DNA of 64,000 nucleotides from assembly GCF_007655305.1 (NCBI RefSeq), contig NZ_VLOG01000037.1, positions 62,001 through 126,000 on the forward strand, read 5' to 3'. Source of the DNA: Algoriphagus algorifonticola. GTDB lineage: Bacteria; Bacteroidota; Bacteroidia; Cytophagales; Cyclobacteriaceae. The translations under genes were made by a program, and so were the position numbers. Shown piece after piece: positions 34,243 to 41,125 of this stretch (position 1 is its first letter; every line of letters begins with the position of its first letter). Below the pieces are notes generated by a model. That model had not been told where the DNA came from, searched no databases, and saw only the letters and a list, made by a program, of their open reading frames with translations.

Positions 34243-35925
34243 ATGAAAAAAACACTCTTAGTTTTTCTATTTGTTTGCTTTACTTTTTGGGTGCAGGCCA
34301 CAGAGTTAGCCAATATGATCACCACCTATCAAGCGGATAGGGGAGCGCTAGGGCGATTATATACTAATAGACTTTCGGATGAATATTTTGAACGCATGCA
34401 AGCATTCAATCAGGAATACTTGGATGCTTTACAAAGCTACAATTACGAGGCATTCTCTGAGGATGGTAAAATAGATTATGTGCTTTTCAGAAATTATCTA
34501 GAGACTCAGTTGGCAGAACTGCAACTGGAAAAAAGGGATTTTGATGCGATCAAAAATGTAGTGGTATTTGGCAGTCCTTTGCATGCATTCGTAGTGGATA
34601 GAAGAAGAGCCAAGCAACCCGATTCTCAAGCTTTGGCAGCAAGCTGGAACCAGGTAGCCAACCAAATTGATGCACAATTAAAGACTTTACCAACTACCTC
34701 CAAATACAATTCATGGCAAAAAGCGGATTTGGCTGCTTCCGCTGTGGAGAGCTTAAACCGCGTGGTAGGAGAGGCCTATAATTTTTACTTTGACTACGAT
34801 CCGCAATTTACCTGGTGGATGTCGGAACCCTGGAAACGAGTGGATGCTTCGATGAAAGCCTATGCCAAAGCTTTAAGGGAACACTATACCAATTCTGTGA
34901 AAGATGATGGAAGTGGGATCATCGGAAAACCCATAGGGCGTGAAGCTCTGCTAAATCAATTGGCTTTTGAAATGATCGCTTATACTCCTGAGGAGTTGAT
35001 TGCTGAAGCGGAAAAGCAATTTGCCTGGTGTGAAAAAGAAATGCTCAAAGCCTCCAATGAATTGGGTTTTGGGAATGACTGGAAAGCAGCCTTGGAGATG
35101 GTCAAAGAAACCTATTTGCCTGAAGGAGCTTGGCCGGAAGAAGTAGTAAGATTGGGCAATGAGGCAATTGACATCATGGAAAAAAATGATTGGATTACCG
35201 TGCCAGAATTGGCCAAAGAAACCTGGAGAACATCCATGATTTCTGCAGAAAGGCAGCGCGTAAGTCCCTTCTTTTTAGGGGGAGAGGTCATTCAGATTTC
35301 CTATCCTACCTCCGAAATGAGTCATGAGGAAAAAATGATGTCTATGCGTGGGAATAACCCACACTTTTCCAGAGCTACAGTTCAGCATGAATTAATTCCA
35401 GGACACCACTTGCAGCAATTTATGAATCAGCGCTACATGACTCACAGGCGTTTATTCCGAACTCCATTTTGGACGGAGGGATGGGCCTTGTATTGGGAAT
35501 TTGTCCTATGGGATAGAGATTTTCCGAGAGATGCAAAAGATAAAGTGGGTATGCTCTTTTGGAGAATGCACCGTTGCGCCCGGATTATCTTTTCTCTCAA
35601 CTATCATTTAGGAAAAATGACACCTCAGGAGTGTATAAACTTGCTGGTAAACCGGGTAGGACATGAATACGCCAATGCAGAGGCGGAGGTAAGAAGGTCT
35701 TTTGAAGGCAGCTACGGACCGCTTTATCAGATCGCTTATATGATTGGTGCTTTGGAGTTTTATTCCTTGAGAAAAGAGATGGTGGATTCCGGAAAAATGG
35801 ATGAAAAGGCCTTTCATGACTTGATCATGCAGCAAAATACGATGCCTGTGGAAATTTTAAGAGCGAAAGTGACCGGAAAACCTCTTGACAAAAATCATAA
35901 AGCCAGTTGGAAGTTTTTGAATTGA
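34243..35925 (+). CDS. DUF885 family (putative zinc peptidase), exported
   Basis: The 560-residue protein has a signal peptide (hydrophobic residues ~4-18, ending VQATE) and a helical body with the DUF885 motif HELIPGHH starting at His382 (His382-Glu383 and His388/His389), followed by TEGWALYWEF, the expected Glu-containing third segment. DUF885 members are related to carboxypeptidase Taq/M32-like gluzincins; the substrate is unknown. Periplasmic location is expected. It is followed by a bidirectional terminator and appears monocistronic. Confidence 0.87.
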   Translation: MKKTLLVFLFVCFTFWVQATELANMITTYQADRGALGRLYTNRLSDEYFERMQAFNQEYLDALQSYNYEAFSEDGKIDYVLFRNYLETQLAELQLEKRDFDAIKNVVVFGSPLHAFVVDRRRAKQPDSQALAASWNQVANQIDAQLKTLPTTSKYNSWQKADLAASAVESLNRVVGEAYNFYFDYDPQFTWWMSEPWKRVDASMKAYAKALREHYTNSVKDDGSGIIGKPIGREALLNQLAFEMIAYTPEELIAEAEKQFAWCEKEMLKASNELGFGNDWKAALEMVKETYLPEGAWPEEVVRLGNEAIDIMEKNDWITVPELAKETWRTSMISAERQRVSPFFLGGEVIQISYPTSEMSHEEKMMSMRGNNPHFSRATVQHELIPGHHLQQFMNQRYMTHRRLFRTPFWTEGWALYWEFVLWDRDFPRDAKDKVGMLFWRMHRCARIIFSLNYHLGKMTPQECINLLVNRVGHEYANAEAEVRRSFEGSYGPLYQIAYMIGALEFYSLRKEMVDSGKMDEKAFHDLIMQQNTMPVEILRAKVTGKPLDKNHKASWKFLN

Positions 35926-35958: not shown

Positions 35959-35989
35959 AAAAAAAGGAGGCTGAATGGCCTCCTTTTTT
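35959..35989. terminator. bidirectional intrinsic terminator
   Basis: Stem AAAAAAGGAGGC/GCCTCCTTTTTT with a 6-nt loop. It serves the DUF885 gene (+) and the sigma-factor operon (-), whose last gene ends at 36008. Confidence 0.88.
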
Positions 35990-36007: not shown

Positions 36008-36763
36008 TTATTTAATCTTAACCTTTGCTCCCATTTTGAGGGTGATAATGATTACTCCATTTTTGCCCTTGTCTCCGTACACTTCTGTGGCACTTTTATC
36101 TTTCAGCACAGTGATACTTTCAATATCATTAGGATTGATATCGAGCTGCTCCATTGAGGATTTTTCTAGGGTTCCTGAATCTGAATTGATGACAAAAAGG
36201 GGCTGGTCACTACTCGCTTCTCCAGCCACTACCACATTCACTTTCGAATTCGGAGAAAATCCAGAATAAGTACTATATGCAGACTGACCCGATCTAGTTT
36301 GTCCAGTACCACGAAGTCCACTAGCTATGGTTCCGCGTACAGAAGTTGCAGGCCTATTACTGGAATAGCCTACTACCCGAGTTTGTCCCATCTGTTTGAT
36401 TTGCTCTTCTGTCAATTCGTTTTTGATGGCAACCAAAGAGCTGAGCTGCTTTTTCTTCAATTGATTTTCGAGCTGTAAAACAATGTCTAATTGCTTTGTA
36501 ACAGCTAAGGCATCTACTTTAGGCAATTGAAGCATCTTTTCCAATTTGGAATTAGCTTCATCCAAGTCCCATTTAAGGGTAGAGAATTCTCCGGCATTTT
36601 CAGCATGGATTTTTTTGATCTTAGTGGCTTGGGCATCTGTCAGGTTGATTTTTTCTCTGACCTCCATGATTTGATCGGCCGAGTATAAATTCTTTTTGAA
36701 AATGTCCTGAGCCATCATGATAGAAGAAAGCAGGAAAAGGGGGACAATTAATAGGTTTTTCAT
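36008..36763 (-). CDS. fusion of Spy/CpxP-like (LTxxQ) domain and TonB-plug-like module
   Basis: The 251-residue exported protein has a signal peptide (residues 1-19, ending MMAQ), then a helical domain with two LTxxQ motifs (LTDAQ 41-45, LTEEQ 117-121), the signature of the Spy/CpxP periplasmic stress chaperone/metal sensor family. A Ser/Gly/Thr-rich linker (~130-182) leads to a C-terminal module (183-245) with PLFVINSD...LDINPNDIESITVLKDKSATEVYGDKGKNGVIIITLK-type sequence, i.e. the last part of a TonB-receptor plug, without any barrel. It is the third gene of an ECF sigma / anti-sigma operon. Role unknown; stress sensing at the envelope is plausible. Confidence 0.8.
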   Translation of the reverse strand: MKNLLIVPLFLLSSIMMAQDIFKKNLYSADQIMEVREKINLTDAQATKIKKIHAENAGEFSTLKWDLDEANSKLEKMLQLPKVDALAVTKQLDIVLQLENQLKKKQLSSLVAIKNELTEEQIKQMGQTRVVGYSSNRPATSVRGTIASGLRGTGQTRSGQSAYSTYSGFSPNSKVNVVVAGEASSDQPLFVINSDSGTLEKSSMEQLDINPNDIESITVLKDKSATEVYGDKGKNGVIIITLKMGAKVKIK

Positions 36764-36780
36764 AGGTAAGTTGGTTTAGC

Positions 36781-37092
36781 TTAGAATTCTGTTAGTAATG
36801 AGGAGGTGCTTGATTCCCAAACATCGATGTATGCCTTTTCTTCTATAATCAATGTTTGCTGCTGATTTTCATTCTCTTGAAGAGAAATGATGATTACCTC
36901 ATTGGGAGCTTCTTTGGCAGGCTCTTGTTGATACCATAATAATCCTCCAACGAGTAAGGATGCAGCTATTCCCATTGGAAACCACCAATTAAAAGTACTC
37001 ACCTTTGTTTCCGGGAATTCGGGAATAGGTAGGTTTTGATCTTGCTTTTTCATTTCAGAGAAAAAGTCTTCTATCAGTTGATCATTTTCCAT
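36781..37092 (-). CDS. putative membrane anti-sigma factor
   Basis: The 103-residue protein has a short cytosolic N-terminus, one membrane helix (WWFPMGIAASLLVGGLLWY, residues ~31-49) and a small periplasmic tail. It overlaps the end of the sigma-factor gene by 11 nt. A ZAS-type HxxxCxxC zinc motif is absent, so the anti-sigma call is based on operon position and topology. Confidence 0.65.
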   Translation of the reverse strand: MENDQLIEDFFSEMKKQDQNLPIPEFPETKVSTFNWWFPMGIAASLLVGGLLWYQQEPAKEAPNEVIIISLQENENQQQTLIIEEKAYIDVWESSTSSLLTEF

Positions 37093-37576
37093 GATATTCC
37101 AGTATATGGGATTTTAAGATTAATTCTTTGAGTTTCTTTTTTCCGCGCTCGTAGTGAGTCCGGGCCGTTCCAAGGCTAATTTGAAGGATTTCAGCACTTT
37201 CGGCAATGGTCATTTGGTGGTAAAAAACCGAAATAATGACTTCTTTCTGCATTGCTGGAAGTTGGCTGAGAATTGCCTCAAAATTCAATTCTTCAGTGTC
37301 ATGAACTGGTTCTATAAAATCATCCTTTTCTCCTAAGGCTTGCAGTTTATTTCCTTTTCTCAATGAATCTATGCAAGTATATCGGATGATGGAAAAGAGC
37401 CAGGTTTTAGCCTTGGTAGCATCTTTTAGCTTAGCTTTTCCCTCCAGGATTTTGAGATAGGATTGCTGAAGCATGTCTTTGGCTAGCTCATCATCAAATT
37501 GACAGCAATGCCTTGCCCAGATGTAGGCTTCGCGATGATGAAGCTTCAAGATATGTTCGAGCTGTGATCGATTCAT
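37082..37576 (-). CDS. ECF-type RNA polymerase sigma factor
   Basis: The 164-residue protein has sigma region 2 (AYIWARHCCQFDDELAKDMLQQSYLKIL...WLFSIIRYTCIDSLRK) and region 4 (LPAMQKEVIISVFYHQMTIAESAEILQISLGTARTHYERGKKKLKEL). It is the first gene of a three-gene operon with an anti-sigma-like membrane protein and the Spy-plug fusion, implying response to an envelope signal. The target promoters are unknown; autoregulation is likely but I did not find a matching motif upstream. Confidence 0.92.
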   Translation of the reverse strand: MNRSQLEHILKLHHREAYIWARHCCQFDDELAKDMLQQSYLKILEGKAKLKDATKAKTWLFSIIRYTCIDSLRKGNKLQALGEKDDFIEPVHDTEELNFEAILSQLPAMQKEVIISVFYHQMTIAESAEILQISLGTARTHYERGKKKLKELILKSHILEYHGK

Positions 37577-37665
37577 TTACATCCCTTAGTCGTCAAGTTT
37601 ACGGGATATATGACAAGGCGGTCGAAGAAAAATGAAATTCACAATCTCAAGCTGGTTAGAGACAC

Positions 37666-38322
37666 TTAATTTCTTTCCCGGACCCTAAAAAGATATGCTA
37701 TGGTAAACTCGAGGTTGGTGGAGTTCATATCAAAGATTCTGTCCTGACTTTCAGGATTGGTGAAGTCATAAGAAAAACGAACTTCTCCTGAAATAGTGCT
37801 TTTTCCAAATAGTTTGGAAATACCTGCTCCACCGGTAAGTCCATACATTAATCTTTTTGGCTTATCATTGGCTCCTCCATAAGTGGGAATCACGGGTGTA
37901 TTGGGATCGCTGATCTGTCTTTGAACTTCAGTGGCTTGCATTAAATAGCCAAAATGAGGCCCCATTTTGATTTGAAATCTTCCGCTTCTTCCGGCAAAAA
38001 AACTGGCTAATAATGGGAGTTTTAAGTATTCAAACTCCGTTCTGTTGGCTAGAATGGGTTCATCTTCTCCATTGACCTGCTGAAAGCCTAAAATGATCCA
38101 CTGGATATTCAGCTCTATTCCAGCATTTTTTGAATTGAAATGCTCTACAACCAATGCAAAAGTGGGCTTACCTACACTCTCGGTGCTGATAGCCCGAAAA
38201 TTTGCTGCAGGCCTGTATGAATAAGAGGAAGTCCCATAGCCCGCTCTAAACCCAACACTTGTTTGGGAGAATCCTACATGACTGAGAAAAATTAAAAAAG
38301 AAAACAGGATGAATTGACGCAT
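37666..38322 (-). CDS. outer membrane beta-barrel protein (PorT-family-like fold)
   Basis: The product has 218 residues from the ATG at 38322 (a TTG two codons upstream is unlikely). The signal peptide is FILFSFLIFLSHVGFSQ and the rest is short amphipathic strands (SVGFRAGYGTSSYSYRP; YLKLPLLASFFAGRSGRFQIKMGPHFGYLMQ) ending near-aromatic. This is the general OMP_b-brl_2/porin family fold; function is unknown. It lies 31 nt downstream of the plug/macroglobulin-like gene and is probably its operon partner. Confidence 0.75.
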   Translation of the reverse strand: MRQFILFSFLIFLSHVGFSQTSVGFRAGYGTSSYSYRPAANFRAISTESVGKPTFALVVEHFNSKNAGIELNIQWIILGFQQVNGEDEPILANRTEFEYLKLPLLASFFAGRSGRFQIKMGPHFGYLMQATEVQRQISDPNTPVIPTYGGANDKPKRLMYGLTGGAGISKLFGKSTISGEVRFSYDFTNPESQDRIFDMNSTNLEFTIAYLFRVRERN

Positions 38323-38353
38323 GGGCAAAATTAAGGATTAACCGACCAAATAA

Positions 38354-41125
38354 CTATTTGGAGTTGATGATGAAAGTTCCGGAAACTGGCTCTCCATTGA
38401 TTCCAAGACCTCTCACTTCTACTCTCATTGGGCCGGCTATGTCATTGGTGAAAAAGGTGATTGTTACTTTTCCAGACTCATCGCTGACAAGGTAAGGGTT
38501 CCAGTAAAGTGTTTGTCTTTGATCTTTCCCGGTAAAATCTTTTTCTTGCTCATAATCCATGTAAAAGAAGGACTTGACAGGTTCATACCCTTCGATCACA
38601 AACTGGGATAAGCCTATTGAAGGGATCAAAGGGGATGAGATATTTTGATTTCCTTCTTTGAGATAAACAGCGATTACTCCATTTCTTCCTTGATCACCCA
38701 ACATAGATACAGTTCTGGAAACGATCTCAATTCTATCAATATCATTGGGGTTGATACTTCTGAGGTTGTCTGCTGCTGTAGAACTTCCTGTACTAGCCAT
38801 AATTGCGCCATTGATCATGACCAAGGGTTCCATGGAGCTACTTACAGAAGTAGCTCCGCCTCTCAAACGTATCTGCTGTCTTCCTGAGGCACCCTCTAGG
38901 GTTACCCGCATACCCGGAACATTCCCTGCCAAGCTATTGACTAAATCAGCAGAGTTTCCGGTTGCCATGATTTTGTCACCGCTTACCACATAGTCAGCAT
39001 TTCCATAAATAGCCTCTGACTTGGCCGTTTTTTTATCTTCTACCAGCACGGGTTCCAATTCCTGTTCTCTTTCACCGAGAGCTATTTCCCGGATAGGTGT
39101 ATCACTTTTTTCAATCGGAGGAAATATGCTGTTTGTGGGCAGAGTGACAGGTGCATTCAATTCCGGCTCTAGCTGAATATTGGAGATGTTCTTTCCTTTT
39201 TTGTCCTGAGCCTGAATTGCAATTTTCATAGGGCCGTAGAACTCCATTTCTTCCAAAGAAAAATCCCCATTTCGATCGGATTCCAAATCTACCAATCCTT
39301 CAAAATCATTGATGAAAACAGTTACCTGACTTTGTACTCCTTTTCCTTTTTCGTCCAGAACTTTTCCTTTTTGGGCGAGGGATTTTTCTACTGGATAGGA
39401 AAATCGATCAATTTTGATGCTCTCTGGAATCTCATCCAAGACTAAAGTCTGTTTGATTTTAGCAGGATCCTCCATAGGTGACACCAAATTTTGATCTAAA
39501 ACTGATACCGATAAGTTGGCTTGAATTGGCTTTTGATTTTTATCGGTAAGAGTCAAAGTCAAGCTTACTTTTTCCCGAGGGCCATAGCTATTTTTAGGGG
39601 TATTGACCTGAACATATTCCGAGCCCAGAGTCAATTCCCCTTTAGCGTTAAGTCTTTCAAAAGGACCTAAAACAGGAAGGGTCTTGATGAAGTAATGATC
39701 TGGGCCATAGTTTTTATTCCAGTTGGTATAGGCTCGAAGGAAGTATTTTTCCTCCGATAAACTATCCGGTAGGTAAAAATTCCCCACTGCTACGCCATCA
39801 AAAATTTTGAATTTTTTTTCAATGACAAAGTCCCTAGTAGAATTCAATAACTCCACGTGCAAGACTTTGCTTAATTCCTCTTTCAGGTAGGGATTTCCAT
39901 ACTTAAAGTAAGCCTTGAAAAACACCTCATCTCCAGCATAGTAGTAAGGTTTATCCGTATGCAGGTAGACTTTTTCCTGAAAATTAGCTGCAGTTCTTTC
40001 TAAATTTTGAAGTTGTATGGCTTTCTCAGCGTCGTAATCTAAAGGTAGGAGGGTAGCGACTCGCTTTCTATCCATATCTCCGGAGAAAACCAGATCCTGT
40101 GGATTGAGAATTGATCCATTTTCCCGAACCCGAACTTTTCCTCCATTTACTTCCAGCCAGGATACCGGATATGGGGCGTCTTTGTAGGTGTTGATTTGTG
40201 TATATCCTTTTTGATAGTGAATCTCAATCCTGCCTTTCAGGTTAATCCAATATTCTCCTGGCTTGTCAGCGGGTACCACAAGTTGATCCGGTTTGTAAGG
40301 GATTACCGAGCGACCCAATTCGTTCGCAAAAATATCTGAGCGCATGTTGAGAGAAGGAGAACCTCCTGGCTTATCTCCATAAAGGAAAAAGCCTTCCCTT
40401 TCCTGCTCGCCATTGATCATAGCTCTGAACATGTTTTGAGGTGACTTTCTGTAGACGTCGGCACGGTTTTGTTCCCAAGTTTTGCGTTGCGTTTCCGACT
40501 CAGGCTTGATCTCCTCAAATCTTGCTGCCCCTGCTATTTTATAATTGGTAGGGGTATTAAAAAACTCCTTTAAGTCAAAGGTGATTTTATACCCGAGATA
40601 ATTATTGTTGATTTCAAGTGGGAGCTGTGTGGAGGCTTGAAAGCTGTTTTTATCAGCGATCTCAGGAAAGTCTACCACCCAAGGATTTTCAATGATTGTC
40701 TGTGAAGCTATTGCATCATTACCCAAAAATAGGTTTTGAAATTTTCTCAAATCCCTTTCCCAACTTTTATCTCTTTTTGCTTTGATTTCTACATCTGAAA
40801 GCTCCGTTTCCAGGGCCTTCATACTCAGGTTAACCGTCAATGTCCCACCGGGATTCAAGCTGACTTTTTTGGTTTCGGCTTGATAGCCCAAAAAGGAAAA
40901 GCTCAGTTCCAAAGCCCCTGGCTCAAGGTTCTCCAATAAATAAGCACCACCCATATCCGTGACGGTGGAGATAGTGGTATTATTGATAAAAACATTGCAA
41001 AAAGGCAAAGTTTCTCCCGTGTCAGCATCTTTGACTATGCCTTTGATACTGCCTGTTTGGGAGTAGGTTAAGGAAGCATTTAGAATCAATAACAAAAATA
41101 GAATGAGTGGTTTTCCTGCTTTCAT
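38354..41125 (-). CDS. large exported protein: carboxypeptidase-regulatory domain + macroglobulin-like + TonB plug, no barrel
   Basis: The 923-residue protein has a signal peptide (ending SLTYSQ), a CarboxypepD_reg-like domain (~25-112: GSIKGIVKDADTGETLPFCNVFI), an MG2 macroglobulin-like domain (~385-480: KVYLHTDKPYYYAGDEVFFKAYF) and further beta-sandwich domains. Near the C-terminus is a TonB-receptor plug (~705-830: LNSLAGNVPGMRV-like, RLRGGAT, INPNDIDRIEIVS), followed only by a ~90-residue beta domain and no barrel. Related proteins occur widely in Bacteroidota but their role is unclear. The plug ends in the same GDQGRNGVI pattern as the protein at 36008-36763. Confidence 0.82.
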   Translation of the reverse strand: MKAGKPLILFLLLILNASLTYSQTGSIKGIVKDADTGETLPFCNVFINNTTISTVTDMGGAYLLENLEPGALELSFSFLGYQAETKKVSLNPGGTLTVNLSMKALETELSDVEIKAKRDKSWERDLRKFQNLFLGNDAIASQTIIENPWVVDFPEIADKNSFQASTQLPLEINNNYLGYKITFDLKEFFNTPTNYKIAGAARFEEIKPESETQRKTWEQNRADVYRKSPQNMFRAMINGEQEREGFFLYGDKPGGSPSLNMRSDIFANELGRSVIPYKPDQLVVPADKPGEYWINLKGRIEIHYQKGYTQINTYKDAPYPVSWLEVNGGKVRVRENGSILNPQDLVFSGDMDRKRVATLLPLDYDAEKAIQLQNLERTAANFQEKVYLHTDKPYYYAGDEVFFKAYFKYGNPYLKEELSKVLHVELLNSTRDFVIEKKFKIFDGVAVGNFYLPDSLSEEKYFLRAYTNWNKNYGPDHYFIKTLPVLGPFERLNAKGELTLGSEYVQVNTPKNSYGPREKVSLTLTLTDKNQKPIQANLSVSVLDQNLVSPMEDPAKIKQTLVLDEIPESIKIDRFSYPVEKSLAQKGKVLDEKGKGVQSQVTVFINDFEGLVDLESDRNGDFSLEEMEFYGPMKIAIQAQDKKGKNISNIQLEPELNAPVTLPTNSIFPPIEKSDTPIREIALGEREQELEPVLVEDKKTAKSEAIYGNADYVVSGDKIMATGNSADLVNSLAGNVPGMRVTLEGASGRQQIRLRGGATSVSSSMEPLVMINGAIMASTGSSTAADNLRSINPNDIDRIEIVSRTVSMLGDQGRNGVIAVYLKEGNQNISSPLIPSIGLSQFVIEGYEPVKSFFYMDYEQEKDFTGKDQRQTLYWNPYLVSDESGKVTITFFTNDIAGPMRVEVRGLGINGEPVSGTFIINSK

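Follow-up and report, generated by a model that had tools for sequence, protein, structure and literature searches.

An ECF sigma factor operon of Algoriphagus encodes a Spy-type protein joined to half of a SusC/RagA-type plug and may act as a CnrYXH-like envelope-stress switch

In the CnrYXH system of Cupriavidus metallidurans, the periplasmic protein CnrX acts through the membrane anti-sigma factor CnrY on the extracytoplasmic function (ECF) sigma factor CnrH, as described in PMC7689651 and PMC7406223. Binding of metal to CnrX, for which Met123 is a ligand, loosens the hold of CnrY on CnrH (PMC7689651); as a class II anti-sigma factor, CnrY has two helices wrapped round the sigma factor (PMC7406223). 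Here we describe a set of three genes, the trio, on the minus strand of a 64,000-nucleotide (nt) window from Algoriphagus algorifonticola (contig NZ_VLOG01000037.1; the window is the whole stretch of DNA that was analysed), which run in the order ECF sigma factor, 103-residue putative anti-sigma factor and 251-residue protein joining a Spy-type helical part to a portion of a SusC/RagA-type plug (the Spy-plug protein; Table 1). Comparison of genomes shows a conserved predicted operon, co-inheritance of its genes, a putative dedicated promoter, a candidate second target in some carriers and a conserved tail on the putative anti-sigma factor.

By analogy, the trio is closest to CnrYXH, and not to FecR/FecA. 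Like CnrYXH and NccYXH, it appears to combine an ECF sigma factor, a membrane anti-sigma factor that is not of class I (putative here) and a periplasmic protein, CnrX and NccX being among the top fold matches of the Spy part (VIA-align Z of 9.6 and 8.8). We found each element of the CnrYXH-type layout in the trio, namely an ECF sigma operon with a small protein having a single transmembrane (TM) segment, assigned by eye, and a Spy-type periplasmic protein. Unlike CnrX, the Spy-plug protein lacks a conserved metal site and an obvious anchor, and adds a linker and half a plug, this plug tail being the greatest difference between the two systems. The order of the cnr genes also differs from that of the trio. 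Given that a conserved metal site was not found and the anchor is uncertain, we do not file the trio as a member of the CnrYXH group; no metal-efflux target was found at the promoter sites, the only place at which one was looked for. The Spy-plug protein shares with Spy, CpxP and ZraP a helical hairpin (predicted here) and two LTxxQ-type motifs, and differs from them in a Pfam LTXXQ score below the cut-off, in its ECF sigma operon and in its plug tail. The FecI/FecR systems with TonB-dependent transducers resemble the trio in pairing an ECF sigma factor with a membrane anti-sigma factor (putative here) and in including plug sequence; unlike them, the trio has no barrel, signalling domain or FecR domain. 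An earlier note on this DNA knew of no described system with such a layout; CnrYXH (PMC7689651, PMC7406223) comes close to one. The Spy-plug protein or the trio operon itself was not described in the titles and opening parts of abstracts in the literature searched, from which most subscription journals were out of reach.

A further Bacteroidota operon (loci L192, L199 and L136) encodes a secreted Spy, an ECF sigma factor, a one-TM protein of about 110 residues and a membrane-anchored Spy-type protein. It has the same ingredients and operon logic as the trio, and differs from it in a more distant sigma factor (E of about 1e-9 to 1e-10 to the trio sigma profile), two Spy-type genes, no plug, no match to the trio-type anti-sigma factor and, as judged by eye, no W-x-x-x-T-x-x-L-L tail. 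This operon looks like a CnrYXH-type system that is nearer to CnrYXH than the trio is.

The three genes of the trio are tightly packed, as had been noticed earlier, with an 11-nt overlap between the sigma and anti-sigma genes and a 17-nt gap between the anti-sigma and Spy-plug genes. The product of the leading gene is short and contains sigma regions 2 and 4, as expected of an ECF sigma factor (Pfam Sigma70_r4_2, 3.9e-11; Sigma70_r2, 1.5e-7; NCBIfam TIGR02937, 1.4e-17). Among 35 loci with a full-length homologue of the Spy-plug protein, two pairs of which are identical, 34 carry the three genes in the same order and the 35th lies at a contig edge; the named genomes with such relatives are all of Algoriphagus (L038-L042). 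In 196 genomes of the family, a profile of the Spy part matched 65 at E ≤ 0.001 and 51 at E ≤ 4.6e-16, and the matches beyond these 51 are weaker and mostly to Spy-type genes of a generic kind; 15/16 of the weaker loci that were fetched had no plug, the exception being the divergent trio of genome G048. A profile of the sigma factor matched 50 of the family genomes, all at E ≤ 1.4e-49, with orthologs in 31 of 84 genera. The strong Spy list and the sigma list overlap in 49 genomes, and each genome with the sigma factor also has a Spy-part match, which in G048 is a divergent one (3.6e-6). The trio is hence carried by 52 of the 196 genomes (the 51 and G048). Inspection of all 52 showed the three genes adjacent in 48; the locus is broken by contig ends in G021 and G056, the promoter and first sigma codons of G021 lying at the contig edge, a distance of 3.6 kb separates the sigma gene from the Spy part on a short contig of G052, and in G062 these two are on two contigs. 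The plug is fused in frame to the Spy part in 50/52 carriers, and in the metagenome-assembled genome (MAG) G038 (L188) it lies in an overlapping frame. Across 395 genomes of the phylum, the Spy profile returned 27 matches, comprising four from the genus of the window, one from G381 (5.7e-26) and a further 22 that are weak (1.2e-10 and above), and the sigma profile returned only the same four genomes and G381. As G381 belongs to another class and has the whole trio with its plug (L122), horizontal transfer of the unit is suggested. Comparison thus shows the trio to behave as one inherited unit, in keeping with a conserved operon.

The fusion itself is unlikely to be an artefact of chance, since the mean pairwise identity over 53 distinct plug-bearing homologues is 0.48 for the Spy part and 0.41 for the plug, as against 0.16 for the linker (19-95 residues), which is the fast-evolving part of the protein. 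This set of 53 excludes the plug-less L185, the two-frame L188 and any further copy of an identical protein; L206 and L209 were not selected for it either. Positions invariant in 53/53 sequences are L41, Q45, E99, K103, L117 and Q121 in the Spy part, and I214, K221, G230 and G236 in the plug.

The earlier note had read the Spy-plug protein as a signal peptide, a Spy-type domain with LTxxQ motifs at residues 41-45 and 117-121, a Ser/Gly linker and a plug-like end without a barrel, encoded in an ECF sigma operon. Most of this description held: the motifs are present at these residues, a signal-peptide-like stretch ending MMA|QD can be read by eye (no predictor was used), the linker is disordered in the predicted structure, and the strict co-inheritance with the sigma factor agrees with the operon. 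The domain search that it proposed returned both Spy-type and plug matches, and the proposed neighbourhood survey placed the fusion with sigma genes; neither of the results that the note had named as refuting its reading came about. The best Pfam match of the whole protein is Metal_resist (PF13801; E 6.3e-7, 30.0 bits, above the cut-off of 29.2), and the LTXXQ/Spy-CpxP family (PF07813) falls below its cut-off (1.5e-4, 22.8 bits vs 24.3). It is possible that the N-terminus serves as an uncleaved membrane anchor. The description of the plug stood as to the match and the missing barrel, and had to be narrowed as to its extent. NCBIfam TIGR04056 (SusC/RagA) matches residues 171-250 with E 1e-14; the SusC signature TIGR04057 (1.9e-11, 43.6 bits vs a cut-off of 46.2) and, in the protein search, Pfam Plug (8.7e-5, 23.4 bits vs 23.9) lie below their cut-offs, the latter only slightly, and Plug rises above it in a six-frame search (24.5 bits). 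A sequence search of the PDB drew SusC/RagA matches for the plug down to 1.4e-11. The tail aligns to positions 134-211 of the 981 in TIGR04056, while the plug of a neighbouring 923-residue protein spans 67-208, and on this alignment the tail amounts to roughly one half, the C-terminal one, of a plug. The barrel of a TonB-dependent receptor and a complete plug are both absent from the 251 residues, and of the 47 plug matches at E ≤ 1 in the genome of the window, no other falls in an open frame shorter than 480 residues.

An AlphaFold2 (AF2) model of the whole protein, made with six sequences, has a mean predicted local distance difference test (pLDDT) of 62.6 and a predicted template modelling score (pTM) of 0.38, with residues 29-127 forming a helical hairpin, 128-185 disordered (pLDDT below 50) and 189-242 forming a strand/helix end. 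In VIA-align the Spy part scored Z of 9.9 with ZraP, 9.5 with CpxP and 9.3 with Spy, and the rows for these and CnrX (Z 9.3-9.9) align 81-105 residues, in a comparison where unrelated chains reach 9.1; because of this background, a Spy/CnrX-type fold is likely rather than proven. The plug tail modelled alone gave a pLDDT of 78 and a pTM of 0.65. Its top 14 Foldseek rows are SusC-type chains, the best at E 5.5e-3 and none below 0.001, and in VIA-align transporters scored Z 4.2-4.4, tied by unrelated chains at 4.2, so that the sequence evidence for the plug assignment is stronger than the fold evidence.

From its gene position and shape, we infer that the 103-residue protein is an anti-sigma factor. 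Topology assigned by eye divides it into a cytosolic part of about 33 residues, a single membrane segment and a tail in the periplasm. It matched no Pfam family at E ≤ 10 and no NCBIfam family at E ≤ 1, and hence no FecR domain, and a profile search of the PDB with its family yielded nothing convincing (best E 0.12). Near its C-terminus we noted the motif W-x-[SAPT]-x-[TS]-x-x-L-[LIS] in 52/53 distinct homologues (48 by a first pattern and four with LS), and the last residue is F, Y or W in 47/53. A conserved periplasmic end on so short a membrane protein points to a conserved periplasmic reader, for which the Spy-plug protein would be the obvious candidate. Searching 217 genomes of the class with the anti-sigma profile gave 24 matches at E ≤ 0.01, three of which are orthologs in the genus of the window; the remaining 21 are weak (7e-7 and above), lie in open frames of 180-807 residues and were taken as chance.

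What is new here is the conserved promoter predicted for the trio operon, which in the window ends 9 nt 5' of the sigma ATG and would give a near-leaderless transcript. Its first box (TGTCNTA) is present in 50/52 distinct upstream regions, at a distance of 37-49 nt from the ATG, and a second box, ACTAA or a near form of it, follows about 16 nt after the first. The strict two-box form occurs in 32/52 sigma upstream regions, compared with a mean of 0.0/52 in shuffled sequences, and a scan for sigma-70-like promoters found 2, as against a shuffle mean of 4.0. In the 4.45 Mb genome of the window the one exact site is that before the sigma gene; there are no sites with one mismatch and 21 with two, and the 22 sites at up to two mismatches, against 56 for a backwards control, give no sign of a larger regulon there. 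The exact pattern was found in 52/196 genomes, made up of 38/52 carriers (31 of them with the site at the sigma gene) and 14/144 others, three of which have the site where a trio has been lost and left remnants. The promoter signal is carried by the positions of the sites and not by their frequency in the genome. In the remnants (G096, G123 and G153), most of the trio is lost beside a promoter-like site: L296 now has the final portion of the plug next to the promoter, L295 keeps the sigma start as its only recognisable piece, and L294 retains little beyond the sigma start codons.

Ten of the additional sites in carriers precede the same gene, which encodes a lipoprotein of 395-397 residues that is distantly DUF4221-like (Pfam 0.0019, below the cut-off). 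A separate search located this lipoprotein in 48/196 genomes. Over 30 loci, a site matching at least 12 of the 14 promoter positions precedes it in 14/19 carriers from six genera and in 0/11 non-carriers, and when the ten carriers that had led to the lipoprotein are set aside the counts are 4/9 and 0/11; the carriers without the site are G034, G128, G195, G174 and G031 (5/19). The top score in 1500 background windows, drawn from other Bacteroidota loci and not from the same genomes, was 11 (0/1500 at 12 or more). The presence of the site in carriers and its absence from non-carriers ties the promoter to this sigma factor and points to an envelope-directed second target in some genera. The genome of the window has only weak relatives of the lipoprotein (best 1.7e-15). 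The divergent carrier G048 has another promoter-like site, with a spacer of 18 (L313), before a gene for a 401-residue protein whose start looks CarbopepD_reg-like by eye.

By analogy with CnrYXH, we favor the reading that the trio is a self-contained, autoregulated envelope-stress switch, and put its probability at roughly 0.6. The sigma factor (37576-37082) would recognise the promoter at 37586-37615, and the 103-residue protein would keep it at the inner membrane through its short cytosolic part. The exported Spy-plug protein would read the conserved periplasmic tail of the latter, and may keep the anti-sigma factor in its holding state until unfolded or unassembled envelope proteins draw the Spy-plug protein off. 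The freed sigma factor would then raise the production of all three proteins, and the new Spy-plug protein would close the feedback loop and may double as a chaperone. Binding to a partner is the most likely role of the plug tail, be it the anti-sigma tail, an outer-membrane transporter or the assembly factor of such a transporter; as it lacks a barrel and one half of the plug, a role as a transporter or TonB-driven module is unlikely. Several points weigh against the proposed switch. The genome of the window has no second good promoter site, and output there may therefore be the operon alone. The promoter is not enriched genome-wide, and because the backwards control occurs in 63/196 genomes (24/52 carriers and 39/144 others), a lone site elsewhere in a genome carries little weight. 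A plug-less ortholog exists in the 52%-complete MAG G062 (L185), in which the Spy part ends at the point where the linker is expected. The Z scores of 9-10 lie below the level of about 13 under which the tool advises caution for helical folds. Finally, the switch assumes an anti-sigma activity, a binding of the tail by the Spy-plug protein and a direction of control that we infer from the sequences.

The alternatives differ mainly in what they make of the Spy-plug protein. It could be output only, a periplasmic chaperone made after proteolysis of the anti-sigma factor from its C-terminus in the manner of RseA, with no part in sensing. The F, Y or W at the end of the anti-sigma factor agrees with this, such ends being reminiscent of the C-terminal peptides read by PDZ-type proteases, as does the operon's own promoter being the sole strong one in the genome of the window. 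The strict one-to-one inheritance of sigma factor and Spy-plug protein better fits a regulatory partner, however, and CnrX, which is probably similar in fold and is alike in company, is a sensor in CnrYXH; we accordingly regard a purely downstream role as rather doubtful, if the most credible of the rivals. A more speculative idea, improbable in our estimate, takes the half plug for a built-in decoy client that mimics SusC/RagA plugs and sits on the Spy-type cradle or the anti-sigma tail, from which the plugs of unassembled transporters, on accumulating in the periplasm, would displace it and so free the sigma factor. SusC/RagA transporters are an abundant outer-membrane cargo in these bacteria, and if such mimicry were real, the trio would be a stress sensor dedicated to the biogenesis of SusC/TonB transporters, of a kind for which we know of no described case.

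That the Spy-plug protein senses metal as CnrX does is very unlikely. Metal_resist is its top Pfam match and CnrX and NccX are among its top fold matches, yet the 53 homologues show no conserved set of ligands: among columns above 60% there is no Cys, and internal His or Met is confined to H53 (35/53) and M33 (32/53). The second target found is moreover a lipoprotein, in an analysis that made no search for metal-efflux genes near the trio. Least probable of all is the proposal of the earlier note that the plug module reports the state of the outer membrane to a FecR-type anti-sigma factor as FecA does. A plug module and a putative anti-sigma factor do share an operon here, but PMC9249621 describes for FecA, FpvA and PupB an N-terminal signalling domain, not the plug, as the part that contacts the FecR-type protein. 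The analogy breaks down because signalling in those systems is the task of another domain; the anti-sigma factor of the trio has no FecR domain, and half of the plug is missing from the Spy-plug protein.

The switch proposed above bears on a wider question, as only 6% of Bacteroidota ECF sigma factors adjoin a class I anti-sigma domain, compared with 32% across phyla as a whole, and anti-sigma factors of other classes have been suspected (both from PMC7406223). With an anti-sigma candidate that has no library name, a mapped putative promoter and a candidate second target, the trio offers a test bed for the control of ECF sigma factors. The point of interest is that half a transporter plug has been kept on a putative stress sensor across about 30 genera; were it indeed a client mimic, it would show how SusC-dependent bacteria monitor the assembly of their transporters.

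Table 1. Positions of the trio, its parts and its flanking signals in the window
Feature	Position	Strand	Basis
Putative operon promoter, TGTCATATA-N16-ACTAA	37586..37615	-	Ends 9 nt 5' of sigma ATG
ECF sigma factor (P0003), 164 residues	37082..37576	-	Pfam and NCBIfam matches, family orthologs
Putative anti-sigma factor (P0002), 103 residues	36781..37092	-	Kept directly 3' of sigma; no library match
C-terminal peptide WESSTSSLLTEF of putative anti-sigma factor, residues 92-103	36784..36819	-	Conserved motif
Spy-plug protein (P0001), 251 residues, putatively exported	36008..36763	-	Open reading frame, domain searches, AF2, alignment
Signal-peptide-like N-terminus without lipobox Cys, residues 1-18	36710..36763	-	Read from sequence
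Spy/CnrX-type helical hairpin (likely), residues 20-127	36383..36706	-	Metal_resist 6.3e-7; VIA-align
Ser/Gly-rich disordered linker, residues 128-180	36224..36382	-	Low pLDDT; pairwise identity 0.16
Partial SusC/RagA-type plug without barrel or N-terminal plug half, residues 181-243	36035..36223	-	TIGR04056, PDB sequence matches, AF2, Foldseek
Terminator-like symmetric hairpin 3' of operon	35960..35989	.	Terminator scan, 13 pairs

The terminator-like hairpin is common to the trio operon and a convergent gene at 34243-35925. On the other side, the gene for the 923-residue protein (38354-41125, minus strand) encodes CarbopepD_reg_2, an MG2-like stretch below the cut-off and a plug at residues 712-813; the sequence after this plug is too short for a barrel, making it a second barrel-less plug. 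The gene for an OMP_b-brl_2 protein (37666-38328) lies directly downstream of it. These two genes were considered as parts of the system and rejected, as L038 and L039 are the only ones of 28 flanking loci in which they lie close to the trio; the flanks reach 6 kb in five of the 28 and about 2 kb or less 5' of the sigma gene in the others, which for the longer gene amounts to only a partial test.
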